NCBI GenBank assembly: GCA_964036045.1
Contig: OZ038386.1
Location: 19,182,225-19,246,224 of the forward strand
Source of the DNA: Eutreptiella sp. 'Long Island Sound 2002'
Lineage: Eukaryota; Euglenozoa; Euglenophyceae; Eutreptiales; Eutreptiaceae
DNA: 64,000 nt
Direction of reading: 5' to 3'
Shown: one piece after another, positions 13,322 through 55,508 of the stretch
Numbering within the stretch: position 1 is the stretch's first letter
How the letters are laid out: every line of letters starts with the position of its first letter
Translations under genes and position numbers: made by a program
Notes under the pieces: model-generated
Told to the model about the DNA's origin: nothing
Database searches by the model: none
The model's input: the letters and a program-made list of their open reading frames with translations, nothing else

Positions 13322-14081
13322 GGGGGCGCCTCAAGCGCAGTGCAGCGCGCAGTGCGCGCGCAGTGCAACTATTTGGGTGTTTGGCCGTACTAGAGACCCA
13401 TACTTTGAGATACTAGGGGCCCCTAGGGGCATCATGGTGACCCCTAGCGGAGGTTTTGATTTCTGATTTTGTCCCCCTTTGTTTGGGGACCCCCGAGAAT
13501 GCAAGGGTGACGTAGCATTTCCGCCCTCTTTCGGGCCCCAACCTTCCGGTGCTATTGAGGAAAGTGAAGGGACATTGTATGGATTATGAGATTGGCACCA
13601 TGGATGGTGCATACAAGGGGCGCCTCCATGTGGCATGGCCATTTATCGGTCGAAAGACGTTGACCGAGCGGCAAAAGGAGTACAATGATGTTCATGGTTT
13701 CTATAGGGCACGCATTGAGCACTTGTTTGCATGCATGTGGCACTGGGGCATCGTAAGGAACATATGGAGGGGATCCGGTACGGAGTTGCATGAGTACGTG
13801 CGTGTACTCTTGCATTTGCAGCAATTTTTGAATCTAAGACAGGTGGAACAGAAAGACAGTTCTGTGTTCTTGAGGGTGGCGACCAATGCGCTGTTCATGG
13901 CTTTTCCAGTTGTGCATGATGTGTGTTATGTGAAGGGAAGGTAGTTTGCAGCTTTCTTGAGCTAGGGCAGTTTGGGTCACCTAATTCTAAGGGCGTTTCC
14001 AAGGGGTTTGCTCGGGGGCTCTTCGGGGGGAACATAGTCTAAAAGTAGCGCGCAGTGCGCGCGCAGTGCAAAGACTCCCCC
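13322..14081 (+). mobile_element. Family-1 (PIF/Harbinger-like) element, TSD TCG
   Basis: The element is 760 bases, flanked by TCG at 13319-13321 and 14082-14084. Termini are GGGGGCGCCTC and, inverted, GGGGGAGTCTT. Just inside each end lie two copies of GCGCGCAGTGC, both in the plus orientation. It encodes part of a DDE transposase (separate entry). Its right end, reverse-complemented, matches the left end of the 54729 element over about 100 bases (TACTTTTAGACTATGTTCC and beyond), yet the 11-bp unit there is different. Confidence 0.85.
13549..13944 (+). pseudogene. DDE transposase, C-terminal half (DDE_Tnp_4 / Harbinger type)
   Basis: The motifs DGAYKG, PFIGRKTLTERQKEYND and FYRARIEHLFACMWHWGIVR match the second Asp and the catalytic Glu region of PIF/Harbinger-type nucleases, which cut and join element ends. 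The first catalytic Asp and the N-terminus are missing and only about 130 codons remain, so this copy is non-autonomous. A 32-base motif related to the 53-bp repeat at 20071 lies just upstream, near 13482-13515. Confidence 0.75.
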
Positions 14082-14084
14082 TCG

Positions 14085-14578
14085 GAGCCTTCTGTTGTGC
14101 CTCACTGTGGCTTTAGAGATTCTGTCAGCATGCAATAGTCGGGGAACTTCAACTGATGTGACCGGTCAGGTGCCCTGGGTGTTTGACTGGGAACACATTG
14201 GCTATGCGGGACTCGCGTGCATCGTGTAGCTGGCGTACAACGCCCAGTCCGTTCAAGAGCACACCGGTACGAATGGCGCGACAAATCAGGGTGACTGCCA
14301 CCAAATTCGTCACATGCTAGAGGGTGCGCTGGCCAGGCTAGATCCAGCCCAGGGGGGGTGGGATGAGGGGACTACCGGATTTTTGTATCGCGTGTCCCTT
14401 TTGGGCGCTCGGGGAGCTCAACATATTGTTCACCATCCCCACGGAGGATGGGGTTAATGGGATAGGCATGAAAGTCACCACGCATTTAGCACTGCCATCA
14501 TATGCCACCTAATAATGGACAGATTGAACTGGGTGGCTCTTCCTCTTGCTTTAACGATGCTGCCTCTGCAGTCGTTTT
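14085..14578. other. Unassigned sequence
   Basis: I see no gene, repeat family or RNA here. Confidence 0.4.
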
Positions 14579-14990
14579 CCCTCTTGCACGGCGTCTTTGC
14601 TGTCCGCAACGAACCGCATATCTCCGGCTCCTGCCGCAATGCCCCGCCAGAACTCATCTGCCCAAATGCAGACTGCTTTATGCAATCGCACACGGCTCCT
14701 GTGACCACGTTTCGCTGGCATTTTGGCTCTTCCCACAGTTGGAGGGGGTGTTACATGAGGAGTGAGGGGTCGATTCCCGCTGCTACTGCTGTTGCAGGGC
14801 TACGGATGCCACAGGACATCTGGAACGGCGCATGCCCGGTGAGCCGTGGCACAGGATTATGTGTCATCGGCACAGGTTCTTCTCGGGGTACAGGGGACAC
14901 TTCATGCTTGTGGGGGCACACGTGGTACTGTGGAAATTGTATCGATATTGTGGGACCGCCTCAGACTCAGTGGGGTGCCTTGTGGTTTTT
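14579..14990 (+). repeat. 412-bp direct duplication, copy 1
   Basis: The same sequence recurs at 15952-16363, offset 1373 bases. I see one difference (gtcgattccc against gtcaattccc). Open frames cross it on both strands, including a Cys-rich plus-strand frame, but none resembles a known family. The near identity implies a recent duplication. Confidence 0.95.
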
Positions 14991-15951
14991 GAGAGCGCAG
15001 CTCGAAAACAGACCGCATGGTGCAGCCGGTGTAGCAGCCCTCAATCACCGGCACCTGGACTGCCACATTCCAAGGTGCCATGTCACAGGTTTTCTGCCTG
15101 CCAATCGTTCCCAAAGAGAGGGGCCACCTTGAAGTGAAACCCAGAAGGAGATTTGAGGGGGCAGGAGATCGTAGGCGGTGGGAAGGGAGAAAGGAAGGCG
15201 TTACCTGTTTGGGTGATTTGCATTCAGGTGATCTGGGTTGCATGCAGTGCCCCCCCTCTGGCGCACATGGCGCCCCTCTGTCTAAAGTCAACAACCCGCG
15301 TGACTACTTTTTTCTCCATCCTGAAATGTGTGGTCTAATTATTCGCAGACCTGAGGGGAAAGCTACACCGCAGCAGTGCGCGGCAGTACACAATATCTCA
15401 GCCCAGAAGGACACAGTGGGATGTAGCAGTTCTCAGCATTTTACCTGAAACCCACCTCAACTCTCTTCCCCCTCAGCAATCCTCAACGAGGACCCCGTTA
15501 CGAGCCCCCCTAGTGGTACGCAGCAGTGCACAGTAGCTCAGCCCAGCAGGACGTAGCACACAGGGGGAAATGCTAGCGGCATGCAGCAGTACACGTACTG
15601 GTACAACCTCAGGTCTGGTAATTAGGGCTGCGCCAAAACTCTATCGTTTTGTTGCCGATGCTGTGGACCTTCGTGAAGGCTTTGTAAATGTCTGTCCTTT
15701 GTACACAAAAAGGGCCTGTCTTGGGAGTCTCACCAGGTCCCTTCTCACAGTGCTGTGCAGCAGCTGCTGGTCTTTTGTTTTTTAGGTAAGCTGAGTTTCA
15801 TGTTTGGGGGGTGTTCTGCCTTTTGCCGTCTCTGGAGGGCACAAATGCCTTAATGCCTTGGCACAGAGTGTGCGCATGCACACATGATGCACAAAGTATG
15901 GGGGACATCCAAACCAAGCCCCATACCAGCCGCCCAAACAGTAGTCCTTTG

Positions 15952-16363
15952 CCCTCTTGCACGGCGTCTTTGCTGTCCGCAACGAACCGCATATCTCCGG
16001 CTCCTGCCGCAATGCCCCGCCAGAACTCATCTGCCCAAATGCAGACTGCTTTATGCAATCGCACACGGCTCCTGTGACCACGTTTCGCTGGCATTTTGGC
16101 TCTTCCCACAGTTGGAGGGGGTGTTACATGAGGAGTGAGGGGTCAATTCCCGCTGCTACTGCTGTTGCAGGGCTACGGATGCCACAGGACATCTGGAACG
16201 GCGCATGCCCGGTGAGCCGTGGCACAGGATTATGTGTCATCGGCACAGGTTCTTCTCGGGGTACAGGGGACACTTCATGCTTGTGGGGGCACACGTGGTA
16301 CTGTGGAAATTGTATCGATATTGTGGGACCGCCTCAGACTCAGTGGGGTGCCTTGTGGTTTTT
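15952..16363 (+). repeat. 412-bp direct duplication, copy 2
   Basis: Second copy of the 14579-14990 segment. The boundaries fall in short C- and T-runs (CCCTCTTGC on the left, GGTTTTT on the right), and I see no terminal inverted repeat or target duplication. The 961 bases between the copies are unique, so this is a segmental duplication rather than transposition. Confidence 0.95.
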
Positions 16364-17588
16364 TTTATGCTGCAACGATCGTGGCTCACATCCCTGTCAC
16401 ACCACCGCAATTCATCCCTTTGTTTGGGCCCGTCACTTTTTGCATCAGAAGTCTGACCATTTACCTTTTCCGCCAAGCTGGTCGCTGGGATGGGAATGGA
16501 GGGGGGGGGGTTGGGAAGTGCTGGTCTACCCTGACCCTCGACCCTGGGACGCATGGGCGGCCTGACAAACGCATGCGCACGTCTGCGCATCTCACGGCCA
16601 GTACGCGTCCCTGTTCAGCAGACCGACACATGACCCTTTTGGCCCCCCAGAGAGGCCATCATTTGGTGTGGATGAATATTTCAAGCCCTCACGCGTGCTT
16701 CATACCACCCCGGTTGGTAGGCTGGTGGGCTGACCTGGCGTGCGTCAAGGCTCTGGTGCAGAGGCTGGGGTTCCGATCCATTCTCTTGCCATTCGCCCAT
16801 CTCCGCCCCGTCTGAGTGATAGTTAAGTCTGTTGCTAGCTCTCTTCAATTCGCAAGTACCAGTCGCTGAGCTGCTCCAGTTGTTCTCAAAACTGTCGGCT
16901 GGCCCAACGTCTTGTTTTCCCGCAACTGTGGGCGCAGCTTTTTTTATCTGTTTTGACCCCACACCTGCGTTGGTTGCACCAAGTCAACCGGCGCTGTGCA
17001 ATCCATTTGTCAAGAATTTGGCTCGTTTTCTGTTTTTTTTTCTTCAACACATTGATCAAAGCAGTTCTTGCTGGGTTTCCCCCCGTGTCTAAGAACCAGC
17101 AATGTTTTGCTGTGGAACCAGGGGTTGGCTCTTGCGCACTATTTCCCGACCAAAAAGTGCTGCGGAACCAGTGGTCGGTTCTTGCGCATGGCCATGCGCA
17201 GCCCCGTTGCTGCCTTGGGCTTGGGAGCTGACTTAGGCTTCGGCTTCGGCTTGGGTTCTGGGACCTTAAAATGCTTGGGGACTGCATTGTCATTCATTGC
17301 TGCCCTGCATCCACCGCAACCATGAAAAACCCAATTCTGTGGAAAAAAAAGTAGCGCGGGCAAAGTGCCCAACCAAAGCGGAACCAGGGGGTGGTTCTTG
17401 CGCAAGGCAGTTTCTAGACACAGGGGTGGGGGGTACGTCCCAACCACCGTCTGGCACCACACTTTCGCAGTGATTGGTGTGGCTATGCGGAGCCGCTTTA
17501 TCAAGGCTAAGTAGTTTTCAGCTGTTATGAAATGCCATGGAGACATCTCTTGTGTCTCTTGTGAGGGTCTGGCTTGACTCGGGACATA
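16364..17588. other. Unassigned sequence with a 27-bp repeat
   Basis: No recognised gene. The phrase GCGGAACCAGTGGTCGGTTC followed by TTGCGCA occurs in variant form near 17114, 17161 and 17380. A minus-strand frame near 17210-17290 encodes a PKPKPK-rich stretch, probably from the local repeat. Confidence 0.4.
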
Positions 17589-18271
17589 GGGAATGCCGTG
17601 CACGCAGTGCCCACGCAGTTCGCACGCAGTGCAAAGTTTTGTATGTCGGCAACCCCTTGAACCCTAGTTTTGGCCCCTTTTCACAAGTTTGTTGTTCCAT
17701 AACGGGGTTTTGCGCTTCTTGTGCATTGAGGATATGGCACCCATTTTCACCCATTTTCAGCCATTTTAGCCCATTTTCACCCGGTTTTGCTGCATGTTCT
17801 TTGTTGTGGGTGGATGGTGGATTATGATGATGAGGAATCATCGGACGTCCTGTACATTCACAATGCAACAAATTGGCAGTTGGGTTGTCACACACTCATA
17901 AGCGGATTCCAACCTTCATGGCCATTGCCTTGCTATCTCAAGGAAACAATGTCCTTTATGGATCCTCTGTATGAGCTTGCACTTGAACCCCGCATCTGCA
18001 CTCTCGGATCATCGCGAATCAATAGCATGGCTTATCAGTAACGGCCCACATAGTGTTGCATACTACTACAAGTTGGGCCCCAGTTGGGTCAAGGCAGAAT
18101 GCCTATGTCCCCAGAAGGCTGCCACCATCTTCCAACACACTGACGCCACAACAAACTGTGCTTGGCCACAGCCACCAACCACCAAGGATATGAAGACCCT
18201 TGTGACACCTGCATAGATGCAGGGTAGTTTCCTCCCTTCCTGCAGTGCGCACGCAGTGCAACAACATCCCC
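17589..18271. mobile_element. Family-1 element, TSD ATA
   Basis: The element is 683 bases, flanked by ATA at 17586-17588 and 18272-18274. Termini are GGGAATGCCG and, inverted, GGGGATGTTG. The subterminal unit GCACGCAGTGC appears at both ends in the same orientation (three degenerate copies left, two right). The left interior (AAGTTTTGTATGTCGGCAA, then TTTTGGCCCCTTTTCACAAG) is shared with 19880 and with the right end of 33952-34651. No transposase motif is visible, so it is non-autonomous. Confidence 0.8.
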
Positions 18272-19660
18272 ATACGTTATGATCCTCGTTCAGCCCCCGA
18301 TCTGAATCGGAAACCGGGCACTATTGGTTGGGCTGCAGGGCTGTTCAGCATCACATTTCAGATTTGCACTCTGATGTGAACACTCGGTGCCTTTCCCAAG
18401 CGTCATGACATGGTTTGCTGTGCTGGTGATGGGCTTTAGCCGCTGTGTGTTCCATTGCTACGCGCCACCACATTTGTTTGGTTGCCTCTCTAAAACCTGC
18501 GGCACGCCAGCCCAGTGGACACGTGGCGACTGGACAAGTTGACAGACCGGTGAACCATGGCTGATGTGGGTACATTTTGTTCAGCTGACTGCCTGACCTG
18601 CAGCCCGATCTGCAGCAGTGCAGACAGGAACACTGCCAACTGCCCCCCCCCCCGCCCATTTTTTGGCACCATTTTCCTGTTTGGATTTATGCTGTCTCAG
18701 ACTGCGCTGCAATAGGCAGTATGTTGCCTTGTTGGACACCAAAAGGCATTTTGTGTTCCACGATGCTGAGACACAGCCTGCAAGCAAGATTGGTGCATTG
18801 CAAGACTATTTCTGACCAGATGCATAGTTCCAAATCATAGGAATCATATTTGAAGAGACCTCAGGACAGTATGTACCCTCTGCTTGAATGAGTAGATTGC
18901 CTCCGAACCAGTTCACAAAATGCGCATCGAAAAAAATAACCCTCACCAATGTAGCTGTGAGGGAGCAAATCAGCTGCTCCCTGATGTTCAATGACTGAAG
19001 GACAATTTGGACAGGAACACACAGCTTCCTATTGTTGACTGACAGCCTCTGGCCCACATGTGGCATTTATGGGGTTGGTTCTTGTAAACTTACCCCCTTA
19101 CCAGGTGCGAGGTGCAAATTCCTTCATCGTGGAGTTGATAAAGGTGAATGTATTTCCCTTTCATGTTGCATTGTGGGTGTGCAAATGATTGGCAACAATG
19201 GGCAATGTCACAGAATTGAGAGTGGTTTCAAACCTAATTCAAATTGACGGATATGTTCTGTGCATTGTGGTTGTAAGTGTTGGATTTGCAATAGGGGGTG
19301 CTTTTTCTAAATGGGTATTATATATGCAACTGATTGAATAAGGGATGCTTCGGCATGGCAGTACCCGCTGCACTACCATGCGCCAGAATACTCTGCAGAC
19401 ACATGAGTAATCATGCGACTGAACTGTACTCTGCAGCAGTGGTGTAGAGACTGGGCAATCAGCCCGAGCGCCTTACTGCTACTCAGCACAGGCCTGATGT
19501 ATATGAAAAAAAGGTGCTCAAATACGAGCAAATTGATGCACAAGGTGTTCAAGATGGTTGATGCCCACAGTAGACTGTGATCCAAAATATCACGTGAGTG
19601 CTGACGCTTGGTTGCTGGTTTGCAAGTGTCCAGAAGGCCTCTAGCATAGCTTAACAAGTA
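18272..19660. other. Unassigned sequence
   Basis: No recognised gene, RNA or repeat beyond short homopolymers (C-run near 18645). Open frames are short. Confidence 0.4.
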
Positions 19661-19771: not shown

Positions 19772-19879
19772 TTTTGCCTAAAAGCAGCCAATGCCGTCAG
19801 CCAATGCCGTGCATTTCTTGGCTCCCCATTGTTAGAGGATGCGCATGCAAAATTCTTTTGCTCGTACAGTTGATACTGA

Positions 19880-20460
19880 GGGAATGCCGTGCACGCAGTG
19901 CGAAGTTTTGGATGTCGGCAAATACTCGGACCCTACTTTTGGCCCCTTTTGACAAGTTTTTGGTTCCATACTGGGTTTTTTTGGTTCCTATGCATTTGGG
20001 ATGTGGCACATTTCAATTGTCACCCTTCATTGCTCATTTTCAACCATTTTCACCCATTTTCCATCCCCCATATTGAACTCTCCCCACTATGGGGACCCCG
20101 AGAAGGCAGGGGTGATGTAGCCATATTGAACTCTCCCCACTATGGGGAACCCGAGAAGGCAGGAGTGATGTAGCCATATTGATTTATCCCCACTATGACG
20201 GCGCCTATAGGGCTGCTTGCACACCGCTGTACGCTATATTGGTCGGAAAACTTTGAGTGAAGACCAACAAGAGTATAACGATAACAAGAGCATAACAATG
20301 TGCATGGTTTCTATCATGCAAGGGTGGTGCACCTCTTTGCACGGTTGTGGCAATGGGGGATTGTCCGCAATGTTTGGACACGCTCTACAACAGAGCTGCA
20401 TAGCCATGTGCGTATTTTGCTCCACCTTACTCAGTTTTGTATTCGCGGGTTAATTTGACA
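19880..20460 (+). mobile_element. Decayed family-1 element with transposase remnant
   Basis: It begins GGGAATGCCG with one CACGCAGTGCG unit, then the same interior as the 17589 element, then a 53-bp tandem repeat, then a broken DDE frame (20196-20455). Fragments GRKTLSEDQQEYND, HARVVHLFARLWQWGIVRNV and SHVRILLHLTQF fall in different frames. I find no matching right end, so AT-rich DNA beyond 20460 may have replaced it. Confidence 0.65.
20071..20200 (+). repeat. 53-bp tandem repeat next to the DDE region
   Basis: Copies start at 20071, 20124 and 20177 (the last partial). Each contains GGGGA-CCCGAGAAGGCAGG then GGTGATGTAGCC. The same core lies just upstream of the DDE frame at 13490, and inverted or variant copies occur near 30320, 57230, 57800 and 63855. 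It therefore seems to be a family-1 internal module. Confidence 0.85.
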
Positions 20461-23139
20461 GCTTTGACACCTAGCAAGTACTTGACGTCATCTAATGTTG
20501 CGATGGTTTGGGCAATGTTGACAATATTAGCCCCTTCCGGCCCCATAGGCATATGTGGCACAATTAGACTACTTGGACGATCGGTGTACTTTTTGAAACT
20601 TGGTAAGCTTCATCCTAATGTGGCAATGTACACAATCATGTTTTGGAATCTTTGGCAGCATTGTTGGATTGGACAACTTTGACCATTAGTCCACAATGGC
20701 TCACTCTCCAAGTGTGACACAATTTTGAGTGATGTCAACTGTATCAACATCCTCTATTACGTATTGCTTCATTTGCAAACGAAGAAGTTTATTTGCCTTA
20801 AATTGATGTTCATCTTTTGTCGTAGTTTTGAGGACATGTGGTGAAACCATGTGTTTTATGATGGCCAACAAGCAAAATGACATTCAAGTAATGCATGCGA
20901 AATTCTTTTCTTACCAATTAATGCTTTTACAATGTGCAAGCTTTTGGTGTAGGTTCTATGAATACTCCAATGTGTACTCTACGAAACTAGCTGCAGCAGT
21001 GCACCAAAGGATGTTACCTACTTACTTTGTGGGTGTGGGAACCGAAGATGAGACAATTCAGAATCAAAAAATCTTTTTTTTGGTACTTTTTATTACAAAA
21101 CATCTCCAAAGGAAAGAAAAATGCGAACTTGGGACCTGGGACGTTTGTTGCTTTATTGAAAAATTGAACACAAACTTTGCTGTTCAAACAAGAAAAATAT
21201 GTCCAAAAAAGAAAATGAATTGCTTTGTAGTATTCCGGATCATAAGCCGGAACATTACAAGATTTATGTTTTTAGCGCATGAACACGGTTTGGACAATAA
21301 ATGGGGCGAAAAAAAATCTTGGCATCGTTGTTTTTGCAAAGAAAACATTTCATACACACTATTTTTTCTTTTTGGATTTTTTGGCCAAGCAAAAAAGCAA
21401 CAAAATCGAAACACGGCACCATCGGGATCAAAACTGCCCAATCTCGCAGTGGTGCCAACCGTGTGTTCACTTGATGAATAATCCAAACATTTGTTGGAAT
21501 ATTTTTAGCATCATGGAGATCTTCAACATAACGAGTGTAATTGGGCCTTTAGGTAGTTTTGGCATCCTGGGCAACATTGCAATTGTGCAAACTTTGTCGG
21601 CGGCATTGTTGGCAGCCTTCCTAGTAGGAACGGGCGCACGGTGCGCGCACGGTGCGCACCGTTTGGGGCAATTACACAGCTTTCAACCTCCAATTGGACC
21701 CTTGGAGAAAATTACTAAGCAGCCACATTGGCACTTAGAAAACAACGAGGAAATGGGTATCACATGAGTTTTGTGCCGTCTGAATTCAATGCAAAGCAAG
21801 TGCACAATGCTTAACACGACATGGACCTTAATTCACACAAAAAGATCTTGTAAATATTCATATGCATGAAGAGGTTTGGTGAAGTGCAATATGCCATTAT
21901 TACCACAAAGGCAGATACCAATGAAAGGCATCATATGCAAAACGATCACAAATATGTTTTCAATGGTTCATGCATTCACTTGTGTGCAGGCTATGCGTGT
22001 CAACAAGCATTGCTCAACTCATTGAATCTTATGCTACAAAGCTATTGCTACCTGCCGTGGTTGGTAGAATGCGATCCTTTTTAAGGGAGAAGCAACCTCA
22101 AGCACACTGTAGTAAACAGCTGTCATAACAGCACTCAATAAAATTCTGCAGTCTCAAGTAGTAAAGACACCCCCTTTGGGATATCTATATATTGTACATC
22201 AATCATTTTGCTGTGTGCAATCTAGATGTGCACCCGACATTTGTATTGCGGTTGTTCTTCTGTTCTGGATATTTGAAGACCGGAGTAGTATGTAGTGTGT
22301 TCTGGTCTTTTGTGCCGTTGCTTTGTGTTTTGTGTTTGCCTTGCCTTTTGTTTTTGTTATAAATCCGGTAGATCCTGCCTCTTGGTAGAATCCACGGAAG
22401 CATGCGTTTATCATGTTTCTAGGGTGTGCTGTGACCATCAGGTTCACATTGGGAAAACATTCAAAGTGATGCGGATGGGCTCCAAATGCGGAACTCGTGG
22501 CGGTGCAGTGCAACAGCACCATGAAACACTGCCTTCCCATTCACCTCATAATGTATGCGTAGGTGATCACTAGGGCGTTGCAAACCAAGACTAGTAGCAG
22601 TATCTTGGTCATTTGCATTGCTGCGGTTGTAGAAGATAGCGGTAACGGCTTGAACCCAAGACATACACATTGTGTTGTTGAGCTATTGACCAAAAGACAA
22701 CATGTAAAATGTTGTCCTCAAAGCATGCAAAGTGAAACGGGGCAGGAACTCCGCAACACGGCACCTTACGGAGCAACAGCAAAGCAAAACCATGGCGTCA
22801 AGTAAATTATCTAAATTAAAAAAGATGCACAGTACGTGCATGGTGTGTGCCGGTGCCCCTTGAGTTGCACGTTCGCGGTGAAAAGCATCCTGAGAACATT
22901 AGAACCGATAAAGACTCCAGAAACTCTGTACAACTCAGGCAATTTTAGCATCTTCAGCAGTTGACAACATCAGCATTGTTTGCAACTACAACATCTTTGG
23001 CAATTTAAGCCAAAAAAACCTTTTTTTGCCGGCAAAGTTTTTAATGTGTAAATAACTTGAATGCAAAATGTATAAAGTTCTCGGTCTAAATATCCCACAA
23101 CCGATCTTTGTCCAGATATTCCAAGTTGCGTACCAGCAG
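20461..23139. other. AT-rich stretch, no recognised gene
   Basis: Base composition drops clearly compared with both flanks. A 217-codon open frame (20828-21481, +) is long for such AT-rich sequence but has no motif I know. An orphan family-1-type end (two GCACGGTGCGC units) sits at 21633-21661 without a partner. Confidence 0.45.
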
Positions 23140-30265: not shown

Positions 30266-30843
30266 GGGGGAATGTTTGCCCGGCACGCTACTTTCCTGTT
30301 AACTATCCCGACTTCAGCATTCTCGGGGGTCCGCAACAAAGGGGACAAATTCAAAAGTGGCTACATAACCCCTGCCTTGGAAAAATAGATTCATGATGAG
30401 GCATTGGCAAAAAAAAAAAGGAAAGAAATGTTTCCCTTCCATACCACCCCTATCACCTTGTGGCCCAATGCTGCCAGAATCAGGAACTGAACCAAGGGCT
30501 TTACCATTGCAGGTGCAGTGCACCACCAACGACCATCTCTGACAGCTGGTGGTCAGAGATGGGATAATAATTTTGTGCTACCTGAAAAGTGCCAAGTTTT
30601 GCCCATTTTTGAATTCTCCTACAAATTCCGAGTATACCGAGTATAGACACATGGGGTGAACACACATTTCTTTACCCTTTACAATAATGCCTAGTATTAC
30701 AAAGTATGGGGTTCTAGGACGGCTACATGTCCAAATAGTTGCGCTGCGCGTGCACTGCGCTTAGTACACCCCCTAAAAGGTCACCGGTGGGGCACGGGTC
30801 AAAAAAGATGCCTGGCGCGTGCCCGGCACGCTAACGCTCCCCC
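30266..30843. mobile_element. Mosaic family-1 element nested in a family-2 element
   Basis: The left end GGGGGAATGTTTGCCCGGCA closely matches 54729. The right end matches the 54729 element's right end (CACCGGTGGGGCACGGGTCA and on), and the 11-bp unit GCCCGGCACGC is the same at both ends. A second, different right-type end, with units GCGCTGCGCGT and GCACTGCGC and a CCCCC terminus at 30769-30773, lies inside. TAA flanks 30263-30265 and 30774-30776, so one reading is a 508-base element ending there. Outer target duplication is unclear. Confidence 0.55.
30532..30561. repeat. Short perfect hairpin
   Basis: CCATCTCTGAC and GTCAGAGATGG form an 11-bp inverted repeat around an 8-base loop, inside the nested family-1 mosaic. 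I assign no function. Confidence 0.8.
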
Positions 30844-33951: not shown

Positions 33952-34651
33952 GCTAAGTGTTTGCACTGCGTGCGCACTGCGTGTGCACTGCGTGCGCACT
34001 GCGTGCATATTGCGCACGCAGAGGCTAGGATACTCACCCAAGAATACCTGTCACCTGTTTACTAGAGGGAAGACTGAAAGGTGTCAATACCATAGGGTTG
34101 GCTAGGTGTCCATCGATACTTCTGGTTGTAGTTATAACCAACAGCAGCGTCGAAGAAGAATTGTCCGGTCTTGGTGTCGACTCGCCACCATCGAGTATCG
34201 GCGATCGAGAGCCTTCGAGCGACGATGACCACGTTGACTTCTCTGCAGTTGTGGACGTGGCCATACCGATCGATGATCTTGAGCATCTCAGTTCGAGAAT
34301 CACCTTGAAGTCGACCAAGGTTTTGGTGCACGTACTATCTGTCGGGAAGAGTACTCTGCGGGGCGAATTGAACCGCCTCTACGGATACGAGGCTCGCTGC
34401 AGTGTCGGCAATGACGACGTCGAGATCCGGGCCGTGTTGACTATGTACACTTTGTCGATGGGCCTCTTCTAGGGGGAAATGGTTGACAATTCAAATATGC
34501 CACATCCTAAATGCTTGGGAAGCCAAAAAAACCCTGGTACGGAACCAAAAACTTGTGAAAAGGGGCCAAAACTAGGGTTCGAGTATTTGCCGACATCCAA
34601 AACTTCGCACTGCGTGCGCACTGCGTGCACACTGCGTGCATGGCATTCCCC
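33952..34651. mobile_element. Family-1 element, TSD GTG
   Basis: The element is 700 bases, flanked by GTG at 33949-33951 and 34652-34654. The left terminus GCTAAGTGTTTGC is decayed. The right, inverted, is GGGGAATGCCATGC. The unit GCACTGCGTGC occurs about four times at the left and three times at the right, in the same orientation. The right interior is the inverse of the left interior of the 17589 and 19880 elements. It carries an open frame instead of a transposase. Confidence 0.7.
34098..34472 (+). CDS. Unidentified cargo ORF in a family-1 element
   Basis: This 124-codon frame ends in TAG. Its second half has a regular beta-like pattern, with VVDVAIPIDDLEHLSSRITL and LRGELNRLYGYEARCSVGND. 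I know no family for it. The opposite strand is also open over part of this stretch (YNQKYRWTPSQPYGIDTF), so the true coding strand is uncertain. It may be a captured host fragment. Confidence 0.25.
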   Translation: MARCPSILLVVVITNSSVEEELSGLGVDSPPSSIGDREPSSDDDHVDFSAVVDVAIPIDDLEHLSSRITLKSTKVLVHVLSVGKSTLRGELNRLYGYEARCSVGNDDVEIRAVLTMYTLSMGLF

Positions 34652-34839: not shown

Positions 34840-36897
34840 TTAACGGAAAAAAAAAAGTGTCCCGGTACCAGTTTGCACAAGCAGAGCACAAGAAAACTGC
34901 ACAGGACTTGACCTCAATTGCCGCCAGGCCTCCCCGCCCGGCGCCTGCCAGGGCTCGGCCGCCAACGCCACCAATGTTGCGAGGCTGCCCAGCATTTTCA
35001 GGGGGAAGCCCTGGGCCGGCTGTTTGACCCCCCCCACCGTCCTACCCCAGCGCAACCAGCAGTAGGCGCCCGCCGCGAAAGGGCAACCCAATCCCCTCGG
35101 ACGCACATGCCAATTCAGCAAACCCAGGAAGCTTTGGAGGTGCCGGTCGTTGCCTGCACCAACCGCCAGCCTCAGCCATCCCGCCCACAACTGGAGCAGT
35201 GCTTGTTCATGGCTCCTGATCCGCCTGGCCTGCAAGTCGAGCTCCTTCCCCAGGAATGACGCCACAGGCACCGGGTCTAGGACACTCTTAGGACTTATGA
35301 GGAAACCAGCCTCGATCAGGGCACGCACTGCCACTCGCCCCGCCTCCCTGAGCACCTCCCTATCAGTGAAGACGAGCAAAAAGTCATCGAGGTAGTGCAC
35401 AAGGAGTATCTCGGGGGGCAGTACCCCCTGGAGAATGCGTGCCAAACTCGTCTGGCACAGATAGGGGCTGTATTTCCAGCCAAACGGTAGGCGCGACAGC
35501 GCCACAGGTGGAGCCCCGGGGGCGGGCCGGAAGCGAAAAACCTGGCGCGCACCCTGGGGCAAGCAAAAGCTCCAGAACGCATTTTTGAGGTCAATGTGGA
35601 GGCCGTAGAGGTCCACATCAGGCGGGAATGCCGACAAGGACCTAGCCAAATCCTCCCAGGAATCCAATCTAAAAGTGGGGGGCTTGCCCCCGTCACTCTT
35701 GTTGATCTTGACGCAACTCAAGATCAAGGAGACCTTCTCGGATGATTTGGGGATGACGAAGGGGTAACACGTGGGCGGGGGGGGGGGGTCAGCCGGCTCC
35801 TCGTAGACCCCCGCCCCCCTCAACGCATGCACTATCCTCTGGACCTGCTGCGACACCCACCTGGTTGCCCCTCGGACCACCCTATCCCCGTCCTGCCACT
35901 CTTGCTCGACGTCAAAATCCTGGAGCCCTCCGTGGTAGAAGGGCGGTACGACAACGTCCCACAGATCGTCCGGTAGCTGGTGGGAGCCTACCGGTCCCAA
36001 TCCCCGGTCCAAAATGGCATCCTCGACCCCCCCCATGAACCGCGGAATGGGGGAGGTGTTGATATGGAGGCATGCCTCCCAGGCGTCCGGGTGGAGCTTG
36101 CGCAAGGCGCCCAGGAGAGCGGGTAAAGCCCCTTGCAAGCGGAAATCCTCGGCTGTATCGAATACTCTATTCAACCACAAATCCACCCTCTTCGCAACCA
36201 TCCACAAGCCACAACGTTCCCGCTCGGCTATCCAATGAAAATGGGGGGTGATCGTCTGCATGAACTCCAGGAAGAGGGGGGGCTGTTCCTGCACCCTCCC
36301 ACCCCTGTCGGGACCCTTACAGAGGGGGGGGGGGGGCGACGCCACTGGGCCCGCCCTCCCCCAAGCCTGGGCCTTGAGACGCTCAGCTGCAGCCACGAAG
36401 GCACCCTCCACCGGGCCTTGCGCCTCCGGCGTCCGGACACGCCCGCCCTGCCCGAGCTTGATGCGCTTGGGCTGCGGCGTTCCGATCTGCTGGGCCAAAC
36501 GAGGTCTCCCAGCTTGACGGCGTGCGGGGGCTCGGGATCGCACGGCCTGCGTACCATCCAGGACCACCTTAGCGCGACGCGGCCCCGCGTATGTGCGGTA
36601 GACACGGCCCACCACTCCAGCTTTCGAGCCCGCCGCGGGTCCTCCTCTGACTGGGCCAACGGCTGCCCTGGAGGACCACGGCTTACGCTCCCGTCCAACG
36701 AACCTGGCAATTCCGGCCTGTCGACGCCCGGGGGAGCCCCTGGCGCTGCCGACTGCGAATTCGCCAGAGGGCTCGCTTCCGGAATCCTCGCTGTTGTCGT
36801 CGGTGTCCACGTCGGAATCGACATTGATGGGCCCGGCTGCCGTCCCCGGCCCGCACGCCCCCCCCCCACGGCCACCAAAGGCCCCGCCACCGTGCAC
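34840..36897 (-). CDS. Reverse transcriptase, DIRS-like, truncated before RNase H
   Basis: The product would copy element RNA into DNA. The N-terminal 200 residues are Gly/Arg/Ala-rich linker. The catalytic core shows LYGLHIDLKNAFWSFCLP, LPFGWKYSPYLCQ and the YLDD box at 35383-35394 (residues 502-505), typical of DIRS1-type RTs. After the palm and thumb the frame continues to CALLVQTGTGTLFFFR and stops at TAA 34840-34842, within the element's left terminus. No RNase H domain follows, so the 3' part is lost. The frame opens after a TGA near 36938, and the GTG at 36897 is only a nominal start. It overlaps the recombinase frame, so expression would need frameshifting or splicing. Confidence 0.85.
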   Translation of the reverse strand: MHGGGAFGGRGGGACGPGTAAGPINVDSDVDTDDNSEDSGSEPSGEFAVGSARGSPGRRQAGIARFVGRERKPWSSRAAVGPVRGGPAAGSKAGVVGRVYRTYAGPRRAKVVLDGTQAVRSRAPARRQAGRPRLAQQIGTPQPKRIKLGQGGRVRTPEAQGPVEGAFVAAAERLKAQAWGRAGPVASPPPPLCKGPDRGGRVQEQPPLFLEFMQTITPHFHWIAERERCGLWMVAKRVDLWLNRVFDTAEDFRLQGALPALLGALRKLHPDAWEACLHINTSPIPRFMGGVEDAILDRGLGPVGSHQLPDDLWDVVVPPFYHGGLQDFDVEQEWQDGDRVVRGATRWVSQQVQRIVHALRGAGVYEEPADPPPPPTCYPFVIPKSSEKVSLILSCVKINKSDGGKPPTFRLDSWEDLARSLSAFPPDVDLYGLHIDLKNAFWSFCLPQGARQVFRFRPAPGAPPVALSRLPFGWKYSPYLCQTSLARILQGVLPPEILLVHYLDDFLLVFTDREVLREAGRVAVRALIEAGFLISPKSVLDPVPVASFLGKELDLQARRIRSHEQALLQLWAGWLRLAVGAGNDRHLQSFLGLLNWHVRPRGLGCPFAAGAYCWLRWGRTVGGVKQPAQGFPLKMLGSLATLVALAAEPWQAPGGEAWRQLRSSPVQFSCALLVQTGTGTLFFFR

Positions 36898-38801: not shown

Positions 38802-38926
38802 GGGTTAACAAAAACAAAGACAGGAAAACTGCCTAAACATTGGAGACGCAAACAAAAGTTGAGACGAGGCACAACTAGTGTTTTCCCAAAAAAGCCCGCG
38901 GGCACTGCATGTGCTCAACCATGGTT

Positions 38927-39185
38927 GGTGGCAGTTGGCGGTTGGCGGTTGGCGGCGGTTGGCGGTTGGCAGTTGGCAACTGGCGGTTGGTGGCGGTTGG
39001 TGGTGGTTGGCGGCGGTTGGTGGCTGGCGGTTGGTGGTTGGAGGCGGTTGGCAGTGGTTGGCAGTTGGCGGTTGGTCGCCGCTGGCGGTTGGCGGCGGTT
39101 GGTGGCTGGCGGTTGGTGGCGGTTGGTGGTTGGCGGTTGGTGGCGGTTGGCAGTTGATGGGAGTTGGCGGTTGGCGGTTGGTGGT
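38927..39185. repeat. GGCGGTTGGT-type minisatellite
   Basis: About 25 degenerate copies of a GGCGGTTGGT or GGCAGTTGGC decamer lie between the gag start and the right terminus of the 34829-39252 element. Long open frames across it are repeat artefacts. It may act as a subterminal transposase-binding array. Confidence 0.9.
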
Positions 39186-39190
39186 CCCTT

Positions 39191-39250
39191 GGGGCGGTCC
39201 TTAAGGGCTGTCGTTAGCAAAAAAAAAATCTCGTCCCTTAAGGACCCCCC
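39191..39250. repeat. Terminal hairpin of the 4.4-kb element
   Basis: GGGGCGGTCCTTAAGGG and CCCTTAAGGACCCCCC form inverted arms around an A-run. The outer arm is also the element's right terminus. Confidence 0.8.
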
Positions 39251-41055: not shown

Positions 41056-41546
41056 GGGGGCGTTTTCGCACAGCGCGCGCACAGCGCCAGTTATTACGGT
41101 GTTTACCCCGGTATTAGCCCTGAAAACCTGCCACCTCTAGAAGCATGCATGAGCAATTCAAAACTCCGAAATTCAAATGTGTCGTGTTCTCAGAAATATC
41201 CAATGTCCAAAACAATGCAATGTAGACAACAAAATTGTCTTGCGGGTGTTACTCCTTGATACCCGTAGCCTCGGAATCCAAGTCCACGTTGATATATGAA
41301 CGGATGAATTGAACGAAAGGAGTCCGAAAAAAAATAGACACTCAGAAAGTGGAGTGATGGACTCCTTCCCCGATTGTCAGGTGGCGGCGAAGGGTACATA
41401 CACGCAAGAAGGGGGAGGGTTGATGCTACAAAGATACACAATGGCAATAGTACCCTGCGGCAATCCTACACCCAAAAAGCTGCCTACCGGTGGTGGAGAA
41501 TGGCCTACTTTTCGTACAGCGCGCGCACAGCGCACGGTACGCCCCC
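41056..41546. mobile_element. Family-1 element, TSD ATA
   Basis: The element is 491 bases, flanked by ATA at 41053-41055 and 41547-41549. Termini are GGGGGCGTTTTC and, inverted, GGGGGCGTACCG. The unit GCACAGCGCGC lies near both ends in the same orientation. No transposase is present. It is inserted into an older family-1 remnant. Confidence 0.85.
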
Positions 41547-41549
41547 ATA

Positions 41550-43381: not shown

Positions 43382-44168
43382 GGGGGCGTTGTCGCACGGT
43401 GCGCGCACGGTGCGTGCACGGTGCGCGCACGGTTCAATGTTTTTGGGATGGTTGCCCAACTTGTACCCCGTTGAATGGCCCCCATAGAAACACACCCAGG
43501 GTCCTGATTTCTGCACCTTGCAGTCCATACTGGCATACCAGGATTCTTCAATTTTTAGTCTGATGCTTGTCACAGGTTCCAGGGTCCTATTTTCTGCACC
43601 CTGCAGCCCCTATTGGCGTACCGGGAATTTTTTTTTTTTGAATCTGATGCTTGTCACAGGTTCCAGGCTCCCAATTTCTGCACCTTGCACGCACCTCCGT
43701 AACAAACCATGCACAGGCGACAACACAAGCGACAACACTGGTTGGGTTACGGGAATTTCAATTTCATCCGCCACAGCATTCTGGCTCATGATCATCAATT
43801 CTAGGGGCTTCAGCTTCCACTTCAGGTAATTGGGGCTCCAGCAAAGCGTCCATCGGCGCCTCCTGGTGCACAGGTTGGGGGGAATCGGGGCTCTCAGCAG
43901 TCACAAATTGCAAACTCCAACCGCTCCTCGGGTGCATGCTCATACAAGACCTCTTCACCACCCAATTCGTACCGAATAGAGACGCGACTCCCACCTCTTG
44001 GAGAAGGGTCAACGACAGTGGCCGACACCCTATCCCCGTTGGAGCGGTGGTAGTACACAGGCAGTCCGGCGACAAGCTAGGGCAGCTCAGATTCAGGCAT
44101 TGTGGATCTGGTGGACACAGAATACGCAAAAGGACGCACGGTGCGCGCACGGTTCAGGCAACACCCCC
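43382..44168. mobile_element. Family-1 element, TSD TTA
   Basis: The element is 787 bases, flanked by TTA at 43379-43381 and 44169-44171. Termini are GGGGGCGTTGTC and, inverted, GGGGGTGTTGCC. The unit GCACGGTGCGC (with GTGCACGGTGC variants) is present about four times at the left and twice at the right, in the same orientation. It contains a tandem repeat and no transposase. A minus-strand Glu/Pro-rich frame (43764-44150) is unassigned. Confidence 0.88.
43497..43690. repeat. Tandem repeat of about 85 bp inside the TTA element
   Basis: Roughly 2.3 copies of a unit containing TTTCTGCACCTTGCAG, TGGCATACCAGG and CTGATGCTTGTCACAGGTTC. A single inverted copy sits at 30145-30230 in the nested element cluster. 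Confidence 0.8.
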
Positions 44169-44171
44169 TTA

Positions 44172-49879: not shown

Positions 49880-50502
49880 TTGGACGTTGGTGGGACACAT
49901 TTCTACGTGGCAGCTAGTGTGATGCGGAGTCGGGGCCTAAAGTATTTCTCAGCCATGGTGGATTTCCCATGCACAGAAGGGTCCTATGAGTTCATTGACC
50001 GTGATGCAGATAAAATTGCACTCACATTTCATTATCTGCAGATCAGATCTCTGCTTGTGCCTCAGGATGTAATGCAATGTAGTGCATTGCAGTGTGAGGC
50101 GCGCTTCTGCTGTTTGTCAGAATTTGTCATCACAAAAAGTGTTTGGTCATGGTGCCATGCCCTTGGACATAGGTGATGTTGGTCCTGCCCATGTGTATTG
50201 TGAAGAAAAGCTGTGGCAGAAGTCGCCATCTCTGCAACCGCCATCAAACTGTCAGGTGCAACCTTGTCGTAGACCATTCAAGCTGACCAATTTGGGTGGG
50301 TCCGTTTCTCGCTGGTGAGGTGGAGTTGGAGAAAGTAGTTGCGCAGATGCTAGCATCCCACCGTGCCTTGTGGACGGCTGTGAAGGAGAAGCATAAGAAG
50401 CATCATCTGAAGTCGTTCATGAATTTCATCAAGAAAAGTGCGGAGTTTGAAATTGATTGTGCGGCTGAAAGACAACTGCAGCGGAGCAGCGAAACCCGCT
50501 GA
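49880..50502 (+). CDS. BTB/POZ (T1/KCTD-type) domain fragment
   Basis: The frame from about 49880 reads LDVGGTHFYVAASVM, KYFSAMVDF, GSYEFIDRDADK, LTFHYLQIRSLLVP and ALQCEARFCCLSEF, which follows the whole T1/BTB core of KCTD-type proteins. Members oligomerise and often serve cullin-3 ligases. No ATG is in frame at the start, and the preceding residues VKF are one frame off, so the 5' end is broken or spliced. After a stop at 50176, a helical, Lys-rich frame (50296-50502, including KHHLKSFMNFIKKSAEFEID) may be the next exon. It could be a gene remnant. Confidence 0.5.
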
Positions 50503-50608
50503 GAAATGGTTGCATAGTGTCCAGGGAGAAGATTTGTATTTGGGGATATCATGCGGCATAACTGACGCCAAAGAGTCCCCAAAGGAGTTGCATGTGCGCG
50601 CACCTAGG

Positions 50609-50848
50609 TCAGAAGAGCCTGCGGCCGCTCATCTTCTTGGGCCTCTTCAAATTGAATGCACCGGGCCTCTTCAAGTTGAATGCACCACAAAAGCAGATCC
50701 ACGCCGCAAGGCCAAATCCTCTGAACGCCTTTCTGGCGATGGTGTTGTCAGCATCCGTGAAATGGAAACAGCCTGCAATGGCCGAGCAGATCAAAAAGGC
50801 AATCACCGGGACGTAATGCCAGCCCAAATTCTTTAGCTTCAGCCCCAT
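50609..50848 (-). CDS. Possible small single-pass membrane protein
   Basis: A 79-residue ORF from ATG 50848. LGWHYVPVIAFLICSAIAGC is a likely membrane segment, followed by a basic stretch with KAFRGFG. Size and layout recall B12D/NDUFA4-type complex I or IV accessory proteins, but the match is weak. The C-terminus carries an eight-residue duplication (GAFNLKRP twice) from a 24-bp tandem repeat. It could be chance. Confidence 0.3.
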   Translation of the reverse strand: MGLKLKNLGWHYVPVIAFLICSAIAGCFHFTDADNTIARKAFRGFGLAAWICFCGAFNLKRPGAFNLKRPKKMSGRRLF

Positions 50849-53630
50849 GCCTCCCTATGAAACGGGCCAGTAGAGAGTGATGGAAGAGAGGGACGGTATG
50901 GAGTAATGGTATAGAGTGACGGTTTATAGTGGCTGTTTTGGTCCCCCCAGTTCGTGGGGGGTCATGATGTCAGGTTTTAGCATAGCCAGCATGGTCCTGA
51001 TCCCTTGCCAGACTGATGCAGTCCAAGGTAACGTTTCTAGCAATTCATCCAATGTAACACGCACATACACATCATTGTCCTATGGCAATGGGTGGTACTA
51101 CTGGTCAGTTTGCTATGATGCATTCATGCTGGCTGGTTGGCCACAGCCTTGCAGGCATCCTTGCTGAATATGTGTTGTATTGTGCACCACTGCATTGCGC
51201 AACCCATTAAGCAGCATGAGAGCGCGCTGTGTCTAACATGCCAAGGAGGATTACTTGCACCGTGTGCGCACCGCGTAAGGTGTTGGAACAAACTATGGGG
51301 AAAAGGTCATTTCTTGGTTCCTTGATTACTCGATGCTCACGTACTGCCCACACTCGAGGGCGGAGATCTCGGTGGCAAGCACCCTAACACCATTTGATCG
51401 GATGTAGGTGGCAGTGATGCAAACAGGAAGCAATGAAAGAGACATGGTTGAACTGTCAGGGGACACCGTGCAGTATGTACAATGGTAGTAACTTTTACAG
51501 CTTGGAAACACATGCACTTCGCTGAGGAATGCGTGGGTAGGTCTACGAAATCACTCCAATACACAGTACACGTGTAGTACTCCCTCCAACGCCAACCAAC
51601 CATATCAAAATCTGTGCGGGCACAGTGTGCTGTGGAAGTTCGATCGATGGATACGTTGCACGCTTGTGATGCGATGCAGGAAGCAGATCCCACCTCTCCC
51701 CTGCCAAATGGTTGTTCTAGTCATGACATCCACCAACAATGTGATATGGTGGATGACATACAGTGCGGTTGATACACTGATCCAAAAACCGTGCTCGCAG
51801 TTCAAACATGGATACCGGCTGAGTACAGATGGCAATCGACGCCTAGCCCCACCCCCCTGCGAGAACATTTAGAGCACTGAAAGCGACGGAAACAACGCCT
51901 CCTGTTGTTCTGACAGGGGCATTGTTTAAATGCACCCTGAGAAAACTCAAGCAGTAATGACAAAGCAAAGCATCATTGAGGTCCACACAACCGTGTTTGT
52001 TGAGGCACAGAGCAGGGGCAAAAAAGTGGCAGGACAAAACTTGATCGCCCTGGACAACCAGAAAATGGAGCCACCAAATTCCATGGTTCCAAGGTTGTCG
52101 TTGTTCTGACAAGGGCGTTGTTCTCACGAGGAGGGTGTTTGCCCTAAAGGCTGAGTAAGTGAAGAAGGTAATTTCAAGATATAAAAGCAAGGAACTCGTG
52201 GTGTACATCACATGACAGGGCAAAAGGGCCTAAAATATACGCAAACGAAGAATGAAACTGGTTTCAAGCCCGTTTAAATTGATTTGGGATTTACATGGCA
52301 TTGATGAGGGGGTCCACATACATCATCCTCAGAGCACGTAATAATAAGGCAGTTTTGGAAATCCTCTGGGATTTCACATTGCCAGCCTCACACAATGGTA
52401 GCTGATGTTTTTCTTTTTGTGTTTTCTGTTTGTGTTTTAAAAACATCTGTTTTCCCTTGCTGCACCTTCCAATTCCTGAGGGATGGGCCGGTCATCAGCA
52501 CATATGGATCAGTGGCAGAGGATGATGAGAAAAAGAATTATCAGAACACGTTTCATGCAACGACGGCATGTACAATACCGTGATGCGCAGAACTGCAAAC
52601 TTCCACACGAATTCTTTGGCCTGTGGGCGCGTATACATGTGCTGACAGGCTTGTCCATTGACCCCATGCGACTACACCTTTTGCTGCATGGCTGTGGACA
52701 AAGAAGACGCCTGAGGCAGTACTGCTGGACCTTTTTTGTGTGTGTGTGTGTGTGAGATAGTAGAGCCAGTCAGTCAGTCAGTGAGTTGGTCAGCTAGTGA
52801 GGCAGGAAGGAGGGGGATGGGCAGAGTTAATAGACAGCCCTAGAACACAAACAGCGGTGCGGGCCAGCACAACATGCAGAGTATGCGTGACACAATCTTG
52901 ATGGATGCCCAAGGATGGCAAACGCCTCCCTGACATGCAGCTCATTCCATTCAGCCTTTGCTGTTTCACTCTGGTGCACCCAAAGATTATGAAAAAGGAA
53001 GCTGTTGCTGGTGTGAAGATTGCTATTAGAAAGATTGCTAATTGAATTATCATGCATTTTATTGTGTTCGGACTTGTAGAAGGCCTTGTTGTATCGTGTT
53101 GGCAACAATTTTGCATTTGCTACTTGTCCAAGGTGCACTCTCAGGGGGGCTAGGATCAGTGAATGCAAGTCCATCCCCTCATGTCTGTTCCGGTTTGCTT
53201 GGACCATTCCAGCCCACAAGCTCTCTTTTCTGTTGCAGGCCCGTAAGGTTAAACAAGGGGGTGGGCCCATGAGTTGGGAAGTGATGATTGTTTTAGTTGT
53301 GAATCAAGCTACGGTGGTCCACACATTCTGAGTCCGCCTTTGCTGATGTCCTATGCACAACCATCTCCGGTCACATGGAGCAAATTTGTTCCTGCCCTGT
53401 GACTGTGTTTAGTGCGTGCGCACCATAGGAAGGGCATGTATCAACCAGCGCATATGGCAACCGCTGCATTGCAGTGTGTGGGGTTGTAATAGGAAGCACC
53501 ATGGCAGGGGTGCTGCAGAAAGCATTGGCATGGTGCATGTAGTGCGCATGTGCGAGCCTCTGGACGTGACACCTGCGAGGCAACCCCAGAACATATTCCT
53601 GGAAGTATTGCAGTTTGTGGGCTCTGCAGC
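50849..53630. other. No recognised gene
   Basis: It contains an orphan family-1-like end at 51257-51282 (GCACCGTGTGCGCACCGCGT), a (TG)n run at 52738-52754 followed by CAGT repeats, and a dispersed repeat at 51993-52180. Short frames only. Confidence 0.4.
51993..52180 (+). repeat. Dispersed repeat, copy 2
   Basis: Matches 48389-48600 with scattered substitutions and small deletions, in the same orientation. Confidence 0.8.
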
Positions 53631-53633
53631 TAG

Positions 53634-54328
53634 GAGGGTGCCTCGCGCACAGTGCGCGCGGTGCGGGTGCACGGTGCGCCGAGGCCTGGTTGGCGTAGAA
53701 CGGCAGTACCGTGGAATGTTGCCCAAAAGCTGCCATAAGGGCTGTAGCATTCCAAATGGGTGGCCCATTGTCGTGTTTGGGTGGAATTAACAATGTTGGG
53801 GTCTAAGATTGGGCAGCGGGGCACCACGTGCATTCAAAAATATCCATGTGACTATGTTTTACCGGCTTAGCTTTCCACAGTACACATGGCAATGAATGCT
53901 GACCTTTTGGCACTGGGCAGTAATCTCTTTTACTTGAGCGGCACCACAGGGGAGCTTGTGCCTGCCAGTGTTGTGGGCCTCTCATCAAGTGTGTCACCAT
54001 CAGCTATGAGCGCTTAGGCCATATTCAGCTTTGCGGTGATTGCTCCGTGAAGCGTCTCACCTTCCCCATTGTCCGCGCAGAGTCTCCCGCTTCCGAAAGT
54101 TGTGCGTCCCCACCGCCTACCGCCCCCTGTCCGCCCCCTGTCTGCCCTCCTTGGTAAGGCAGGTGGGCGGCTGCGGCCATCGACTCCCTAGGGATGAGAT
54201 CCTTGGATTGGAGTGGACCGTTGATGCATGCTAGCCGCTTAGACCACCGCGTCCCTGCCTAAAAAGGTTGTGCAGTGCACCGGTAAGTGACACGTCTACC
54301 TCAGCGCGCGGTGCGCTTAGGCACCCTC
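53634..54328. mobile_element. Family-1 element, TSD TAG
   Basis: The element is 695 bases, flanked by TAG at 53631-53633 and 54329-54331. Termini are a perfect inverted GAGGGTGCCT. The unit GCGCGGTGCGC lies inside both ends in the same orientation, alongside ACAGTGCGC and GCACGGTGCGC variants at the left. No transposase is present. Near the right end is a tRNA-like segment. Confidence 0.8.
54158..54259 (-). tRNA. tRNA-like pseudogene
   Basis: The minus strand begins GGCAGGG and contains GTGGTCTAAGCGGCTAGC, like the D-arm of type II tRNAs. It ends ACCTGCC, pairing six of seven acceptor bases. No proper T-arm (GGTTCGAATCC) is present, so it is at most a decayed or SINE-like tRNA sequence. Confidence 0.2.
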
Positions 54329-54728
54329 TAGGCTCTGCGGCCGGGATGTGCAACTGGCCTCTGCAACCTTGGACCATCAGGACCCCCCCACAAACAGGTT
54401 AGGCAAAGTGAGGGGCTGTCCTAATCAGCATCCCTTCAAAGGGTCCACAGCCACAAGCGCGCATAGACATTGGGTCCAGAGCCATGTACAACCTCCATCT
54501 TCGGACCTGTAGTTTCACACCGGGTGAGGTGTGTCCCAAGAGGGACACCACAAGGAGCAAGACTTGGACCGTTGAACCACATGTTTGCTTCCCTCCATAT
54601 CGCTCTTCTACAGCCAGAATGAGAGCTTTCGGTTGACGAGTTGGAGAACCCAAGCCCTAGACACAAGGTTGGGAGGCTGCAATCATATTGCTGCTGGCCC
54701 AAAGGGCTGTCCCTAAGGGGCTATCCTA

Positions 54729-55508
54729 GGGGGAATGTTTGCCCGGCGCGCGCCCGGCGCGCTACTTTTAGACTATGTTCCCCCCGAAGAGCCCCCAAGC
54801 ACACCCCTTGCAAACGCCCTCAGAATTAGGTGACCCAAACTGCCCCAGCTCAAGAAAGTTGCAAACTGGGGTACACAGTACCACTCTCGCTCCTTTAAGG
54901 GTGATCTTGGTCAACACCTTAGCAAGCTGGGAGAATGGGGGGTTAGGATAGCACAACCGCATAGATCTCCAGTAGAAGCGATAGGCGTTATTGAGGTATC
55001 GCGAACAGTAGAGCTGCATCATAACATTGGTCCCACAAGTGTGGGTGTCAATACATTCAGTACAATAGTGCTCCTTACACTCATCACAAACTGCGACGGT
55101 GGAGCGTTCTGGCAACACAACACACACACTTCTGCCTCATCCTCTGCCTCATCTTGCGTGCCACAACCGAGCAAACAGCTGCTCAATGCGTGCCCTATAC
55201 CACACGTGCACGTCATTGTAACATTGTTGGCGGGCTGTCAAAGTGCCATTCTTTCTTCCAATGAATGGCACAACGACATGAATCTGGCCCTTATAAGCAC
55301 CATCATGGCCCCCAACTTCGAAATCAAAGAAAGCACCTCGGGTACGAGAAGGTCCATACCCATCCCAAATCAAAACATCTGCTGATGTCCCGGGGGCCAA
55401 GGGGCAAATCCATATAATGTTGCCCAACATATCAATGGCAACAGTCCACCGGTAGGGCACGGGTCACAAAAGATGCCCGGCGCGCGCCCGGCGCGCTAAC
55501 GTTCCCCC
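54729..55508 (-). mobile_element. Family-1 element, TSD CTA, with transposase part
   Basis: The element is 780 bases, flanked by CTA at 54726-54728 and 55509-55511. Termini are GGGGGAATGTT and, inverted, GGGGGAACGTT. GCCCGGCGCGC occurs twice at each end, in the same orientation. It is homologous to the 13322 element in inverse orientation, but every 11-bp unit differs from that copy in the same way at both ends. Confidence 0.9.
54768..55460 (-). pseudogene. DDE transposase remnant with C-terminal zinc-like motif
   Basis: From 55460 the frame reads WTVAIDMLGNIIWICPLAPG (first Asp), DGAYKG (second Asp) and RARIEQLFARLW (Glu), so the DDE triad region of a PIF/Harbinger-type nuclease is present. 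Two TGA codons interrupt the linker near 55130-55150, where a neighbouring frame holds an acidic DEAEDEAE stretch. The original frame resumes with VCDECKEHYCTECIDTHTCG, a Cys-pair pattern like a RING or B-box. The N-terminal domain is missing. Confidence 0.75.

Follow-up and report, generated by a model that had tools for sequence, protein, structure and literature searches.

Do the short repeats lying just inside the two ends of a DNA transposon mark the individual copy, or the family to which the copy belongs? The question is raised by a stretch of 64,000 nucleotides from the genome of the euglenophyte Eutreptiella sp. 'Long Island Sound 2002' (contig OZ038386.1, positions 19,182,225 to 19,246,224; hereafter, the window), in which seven transposons, referred to here by their start positions (Table 1), carry GC-rich units of 11 bp near both ends. 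A preliminary description of the window regarded each unit as a copy-specific address matched between the two ends of an element. We find that the end-matched 11-bp tag is a trait of the family and its transposase rather than of the individual copy. The elements are PIF/Harbinger-like, as judged from the DDE_Tnp_4 domain, the 3-bp target site duplications (TSDs) and the short terminal inverted repeats that begin with G. All seven TSDs reported previously are present, and the termini are mostly G-runs; element 33952 begins with GCTAAG. Exact units are found at both ends, in direct orientation, in five elements, namely 13322 (4 matches), 17589 (3), 33952 (5), 43382 (3) and 54729 (4), whereas the other two are imperfect in this respect: 41056 has the exact unit once, at the left end, with one-base variants at the right, and 53634 has it at the right end only, with related variants at the left. 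Nor does each element have a unit of its own, since 17589 and 33952 belong to a single family in opposite orientations, so that their two units are reverse complements of one unit.

Copies were collected from the 2.28-Gb assembly (2205 contigs), in which the numbers of first-look candidates were 3510 for 17589, 5072 for 13322, 2264 for 54729, 1487 for 43382 and 1186 for 41056. The 40 best places per query were scored, and 30 loci (the window's own included), 39, 20, 20 and 20 loci, respectively, were fetched. The end test was performed on families A (13322), B (54729), D (41056) and E (43382), in which 101 of the 103 sequences (counting the window copies) could be separated into a left and a right array; L055, which is without a right anchor, and L083, the left terminus of which was not recognized, were dropped before counting. 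L076 and L085 have common flanks and are probably one duplicated insertion. Scripted de novo detection of elements yielded only the already known families and was kept out of the counts. The TSDs are identical in 89 of the 101 copies, and nearly all fetched copies of the four families have GGGGG...CCCCC termini. The fetched copies of families A and B are young, with mean pairwise identities of 98.3% (40 sequences) and 98.5% (21 sequences), respectively; family C (17589 and 33952) is old, its members being 84% to 89% identical to the window copy at 17589. Among the 89 copies with identical TSDs, the first base is G in 1 and the third base is C in 1, a strand-symmetric preference. Loci L040 and L087 show reciprocal nesting: the TAA of a B-type right end has been the target of an A element, and this same TAA in an A-type right end that of a B element.

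The family unit (at least 9 nt) was found at both ends of all 101 usable sequences (20 to 39 usable copies per family). None of them (0/101) contains a 7-base core of another family, and the own core was absent solely from one D left end. Left-right similarity, measured on 8-mer profiles, is 0.848 when both ends come from one copy, 0.836 for ends taken from different copies of a family and 0.046 for ends from different families. Consistently, end-matching is far above chance at the family level when ends are shuffled over all 101 copies (P = 0.0002), but not when ends are permuted within families (P = 0.25; family by family, A 0.35, B 0.76, D 0.34 and E 0.06). The comparison of left and right units with shuffled ends had been named beforehand as the one that could overturn the copy-specific reading, and with within-copy similarity not above that of the same family, this reading falls: each family examined has one constant unit. 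Re-templating of the unit at each insertion, offered previously as a possible cause, is at odds with the persistence of each family's unit at its two ends across the four families. In family C, inspection revealed arrays of the C unit at both ends, in degenerate form; at the 30 loci of this family, our script placed the right end in 24 (L018 wrongly) and did not find the left terminus in 2.

The unit, fixed in each family examined and the same at both ends, is common to transposase-bearing elements and their deletion derivatives in families A and B, and units differ between three types with differing transposases. The frames inside 13322 and 54729 match DDE_Tnp_4 (PF13359) below the cut-off; among 8 related proteins, 5 score above the Pfam cut-off and 3 below. 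A database search returned 262 related proteins, with 'ena' as the source for all of the 120 listed. Genome searches with the transposases P0127 and P0169 gave 19,165 and 16,815 first-look candidates, of which 123 and 143, respectively, were scored, many with open frames; 14 loci were fetched for P0127 and 4 of the 143 scored places for P0169. Transposase-bearing elements of type A (P0169) have GCGCGCAGTGC at both ends, the transposase-bearing element of type B (P0127) has GCGCGCCGGGC at both ends, and a third type, J, the transposase of which is 78% identical to P0127, has GCGCGCAGGGC. Both ends are present in L132 (type B; 1904 bp, TSD TAT, CGGGC units) and in L144 and L145 (type A; 1403 and 1446 bp, TSDs TTG and TCA, AGTGC units). 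The transposase of L136 is 78% to 79% identical to P0127; this element carries AGGGC units at each end, its right terminus is degenerate and its TSD is one base off. Right ends were read at the 14 P0127 loci: 12 are of the CGGGC type within approximately 250 bp of the gene, that of L136 is AGGGC, and that of L138 was not found. The right arrays of L146 and L147 (89% and 85% identical to P0169) are of the AGTGC type; in the shorter stretch retrieved for these two loci, no left end could be located. Transposase identities are 78% between B and J, 64% between J and A and 62% between B and A, with 1, 1 and 2 differences between the respective units. Three loci, L137, L141 and L142 (75% to 76% to P0127, CGGGC units), were considered as counter-cases to the link between unit and transposase and rejected, because a frameshifted tail in their printed frames lowers the identity; all three are thus of type B. 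L131 has a long open frame with PKP-rich repeats ahead of the transposase, and P0127 has a cysteine-rich C-terminal motif with weak Pfam zinc-finger matches only; each is possibly a DNA-binding part.

An anomaly was presented by the pair 13322 and 54729, the flanks of which had been described as agreeing while the units differ. The agreement holds on one side only, where 139 nt of inner flank are 91% identical and a 105-nt block is common to both elements; the other inner flanks are unlike. The B version of the block is 1 base from that of L144 and 2 from that of L145, and more diverged forms occupy the same position in L146 and L147; the block is present in none of the 12 B-locus right ends read. 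Element 13322 aligns with L144 and L145 in several separate blocks at 93% to 98%. Outside the block, 54729 shares with L132 two stretches of 94% to 95% identity, and its final 34 bases, which comprise array and terminus, are the same as in L132; the left ends are 81% identical and differ there in unit number. Because the block is native to A elements and the rest of 54729 is B-like, these alignments identify 54729 as a chimera, namely a B derivative carrying an A block, with the junction within 13 nt common to both types, AAAAGTAGCGCGC, and with the B array and terminus kept. Its chimeric nature accounts for the apparent swap of units between 13322 and 54729. Between A and B, the 105 bp adjoining the right array contain 3 differences, and array plus terminus differ at 6 of 34 positions. 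The contrast between terminal module and inner block is 6/34 versus 7/110 (P = 0.08), or 6/34 versus 3/105 (P = 0.007) if the block is taken to begin where homology starts, a boundary picked after viewing the alignment. Copies of the block also occur elsewhere in the fetched stretches of L133 and L135, and L132 holds two stretches that are 90% to 91% like the A left subterminal region, indicating that block sharing is not confined to one direction.

We consider it probable that these are PIF/Harbinger-like families in which the units are putative docking sites of the family's own transposase, that matched ends are under selection and that 54729 is a chimera. The terminal module at each end consists of a short G-rich or C-rich terminus and an array of 11-bp units, at which an accessory protein or the transposase of the same type may dock. 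Only elements with two matching ends would be mobilized, and transposition would select matched ends while interiors decay or recombine. The B derivative would have acquired its A-type subterminal block by a switch inside the shared 13 nt, retaining its own array and terminus. Array length may be altered by slippage or gap repair, and array pieces may at times cross between ends, a passage that direct orientation would allow.

Several points weigh against this reading. Sampling the top 40 places by likeness to the window copy favors copies with the same ends. The unit-transposase link comes from three pairs only, those of types A, B and J; on these three pairs, the co-evolving transposase site proposed earlier is supported at the family level but not as a copy-specific address. 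At the P0127 loci, the left end was recognized at a minority of the 14, and only L132 passes the both-ends test of the script; L132, in turn, is without a stretch of the longer L131 frame and, hence, may not be an active master. L147 has one AGGGC unit beside AGTGC, so that fixation of the unit is incomplete among older copies. Finally, the combination of direct arrays with inverted termini is unexplained by the symmetry of the units, which is within composition. Dyad symmetry was considered as the cause of the direct orientation and rejected, the units having 4 to 5 of 5 pairs, which is not beyond shuffles (P 0.12 to 0.85, seven units).

Concerted evolution, in which gene conversion or template switching between the direct arrays, rather than selection at mobilization, maintains the likeness of the ends, is a possible though disfavored alternative, and bears on how the arrays vary. 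In family A, left arrays span 18 to 64 bp and right arrays 22 to 45 bp, with lengths scattered on a star-like, poorly resolved tree; the extra-A junction, present in 22/39 left and 6/39 right arrays and scattered in the same manner, would fit such exchange. No linkage between left and right array types was detected in this family (Fisher P = 0.23; the pattern misread L032 and L059). B arrays are constant (22 + 22 bp in 20/20), and those of D and E vary in length. Family E likewise speaks for transfer: its 21 right arrays measure 22 bp in 9 copies, 33 bp in 3 and 44 bp in 9, and 7 of the 9 longest (7/21 overall) have the T-variant junction of the left array, 6 being equal to the 44-bp left array; in addition, a private variant of L106 is common to both of its ends. 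Nevertheless, the within-copy match is not significantly above the between-copy match in A, B, D or E, left and right T junctions of D are, by reading, not associated, and the long E right arrays cluster in a single region of the tree that also includes two copies of the short form, so that they perhaps represent one event; alternatively, the short form may be a deletion. The E data suggest that array pieces were at times transferred between ends, or else that the founder had identical arrays, some of which were later shortened by deletion, and the permutation test does not demand ongoing transfer. Gene conversion between ends, suggested in the preliminary description, is partly supported, as an occasional exchange of array pieces. 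In L117, the right terminus departs from that of the family and is similar to the left one, which may reflect conversion of an end.

It is improbable that the arrays are neutral minisatellites without function, inherited from founder elements. Length drift within families, such as that of the A left arrays, is in keeping with this view, and inheritance alone accounts for the uniformity of young families, but the old family C retains unit arrays at both ends, though degenerate, the chimera kept its own-type array and terminus, and transposase-bearing elements have arrays at the same place. That a copy-specific address is rewritten at every insertion, as the several different units among the seven window elements might suggest, is scarcely credible given that four families each retain one unit at different sites.

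Returning to docking sites selected as matched ends, we tentatively extend this reading to an end code that can be exchanged. A given transposase lineage might read no unit but its own, and the code might change by single-base steps (CCGGGC, CAGGGC, CAGTGC, then the C and D variants), each of which becomes fixed throughout the arrays of both ends; exchange between direct repeats might spread such steps, and interiors could be shuffled freely between lineages if both ends keep one code.

Table 1. Transposons, arrays and related features of the window.
Feature	Positions	Strand	TSD	Remarks
Family A non-autonomous element	13322..14081	+	TCG	Derived by deletion from transposase-bearing A elements
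A left array	13335..13366	+		GCGCGCAGTGC units, one additional A between units
Open frame with decayed DDE_Tnp_4 piece	13549..13944	+		93% over 96 aa to P0169
105-bp block common with 54729	13943..14047	+		Native to A transposase-bearing L144, L145
A right array	14048..14069	+		GCGCGCAGTGC, two units
Family C element, old family	17589..18271	+	ATA	Unit GCACGCAGTGC
C-like left end	19880..20061	+		Second end not located
Isolated array of E-type unit	21634..21657	+		No element bounded around array
Mosaic element	30266..30843	-		B-like ends (GCGTGCCGGGC and variants, minus strand), A-like left-end sequence inside; no matching TSD
Family C element	33952..34651	-	GTG	Reversed relative to 17589
Family D element	41056..41546	+	ATA	Unit GCACAGCGCGC
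Family E element	43382..44168	+	TTA	Unit GCACGGTGCGC
E left array, 44 bp	43393..43436	+		T-variant junction, found in other copies on long right arrays too
E right array	44135..44156	+		Short 22-bp form
Element F	53634..54328	+	TAG	Imperfect units; known here from window copy alone
Family B non-autonomous element	54729..55508	-	CTA	B deletion derivative carrying A-type block
B array adjoining A-type block	54741..54762	-		GCGCGCCGGGC, read on minus strand
A-type block within B element	54763..54867	-		Family consensus 99% to L144, L145
Transposase-gene remnant in 54729	55023..55445	-		94-95% to B element in L132
B array, opposite end of 54729	55475..55496	-		

Beyond these features, a reverse transcriptase frame (34840-36897, minus strand; RVT_1, E = 9.5e-13) lies near element 33952, and a long minisatellite of GGCGGTTGG type occupies 38907-39225. 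The methyltransferase-like protein encoded at 60968-62704 has two closest relatives beyond the window's own protein, both at 52% identity; one is labelled EG_transcript_10965, a type of label used for Euglena gracilis, and the other bears an MMETSP label. Scans of the window with Rfam (gathering scores) and for tRNAs yielded no matches. Among the fetched loci, L020 contains an element with the unit GCGCGCAGGGY at its right end, the left boundary of which could not be set.

Subterminal repeats that differ between subfamilies are already known in CACTA transposons; we found no description of the present families in the literature surveyed. In soybean CACTA elements (Tgm1 and the Tgmt* subfamilies), subterminal motifs differ by subfamily, co-divergence with the DNA-binding protein has been proposed and the TSD is of 3 bp (PMC2613891). 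As in soybean, the families described here have family-differing subterminal repeats in one genome and 3-bp target duplications, but the soybean elements have CACTA termini, tnp2/TNPA-type proteins and longer motifs in direct and inverted orientation, in contrast to the DDE_Tnp_4 transposases, G-run termini and one-orientation, GC-rich units of 11 bp found here. None of the seven window elements begins with CACTA, their termini being mostly G-runs, and the likeness is thus one of working, not of membership. The Medicago element MtPH-A6-4 belongs to the same PIF/Harbinger-like superfamily and likewise combines variable numbers of subterminal tandem repeats with deletion derivatives and mosaics, for which abortive gap repair has been invoked (PMC2213677); however, its repeats are of 60 bp and, where present at both ends, in opposed orientation, rather than 11 bp long, direct and family-specific. 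Foldback-like Tetris (PMC4079207) and Galileo (PMC3688188) have tandem repeats near their ends, discussed as extra transposase sites with possible homogenization within the element, but these lie inside long inverted repeats, whereas the arrays of the window elements are direct and no long inverted repeats of Foldback type hold them. For the nonconventional introns of euglenids, an origin from elements resembling miniature inverted-repeat transposable elements has been proposed (PMC4770533).

The example of 54729 indicates that a chimeric element can mimic a coordinated change of sites. With 1,186 to 19,165 first-look candidates per query, mostly unscored, and with young families, transposase-bearing relatives and units differing by single bases, the Eutreptiella genome makes the joint change of a transposase and all of its sites at both ends testable, by sequence and by a simple assay.

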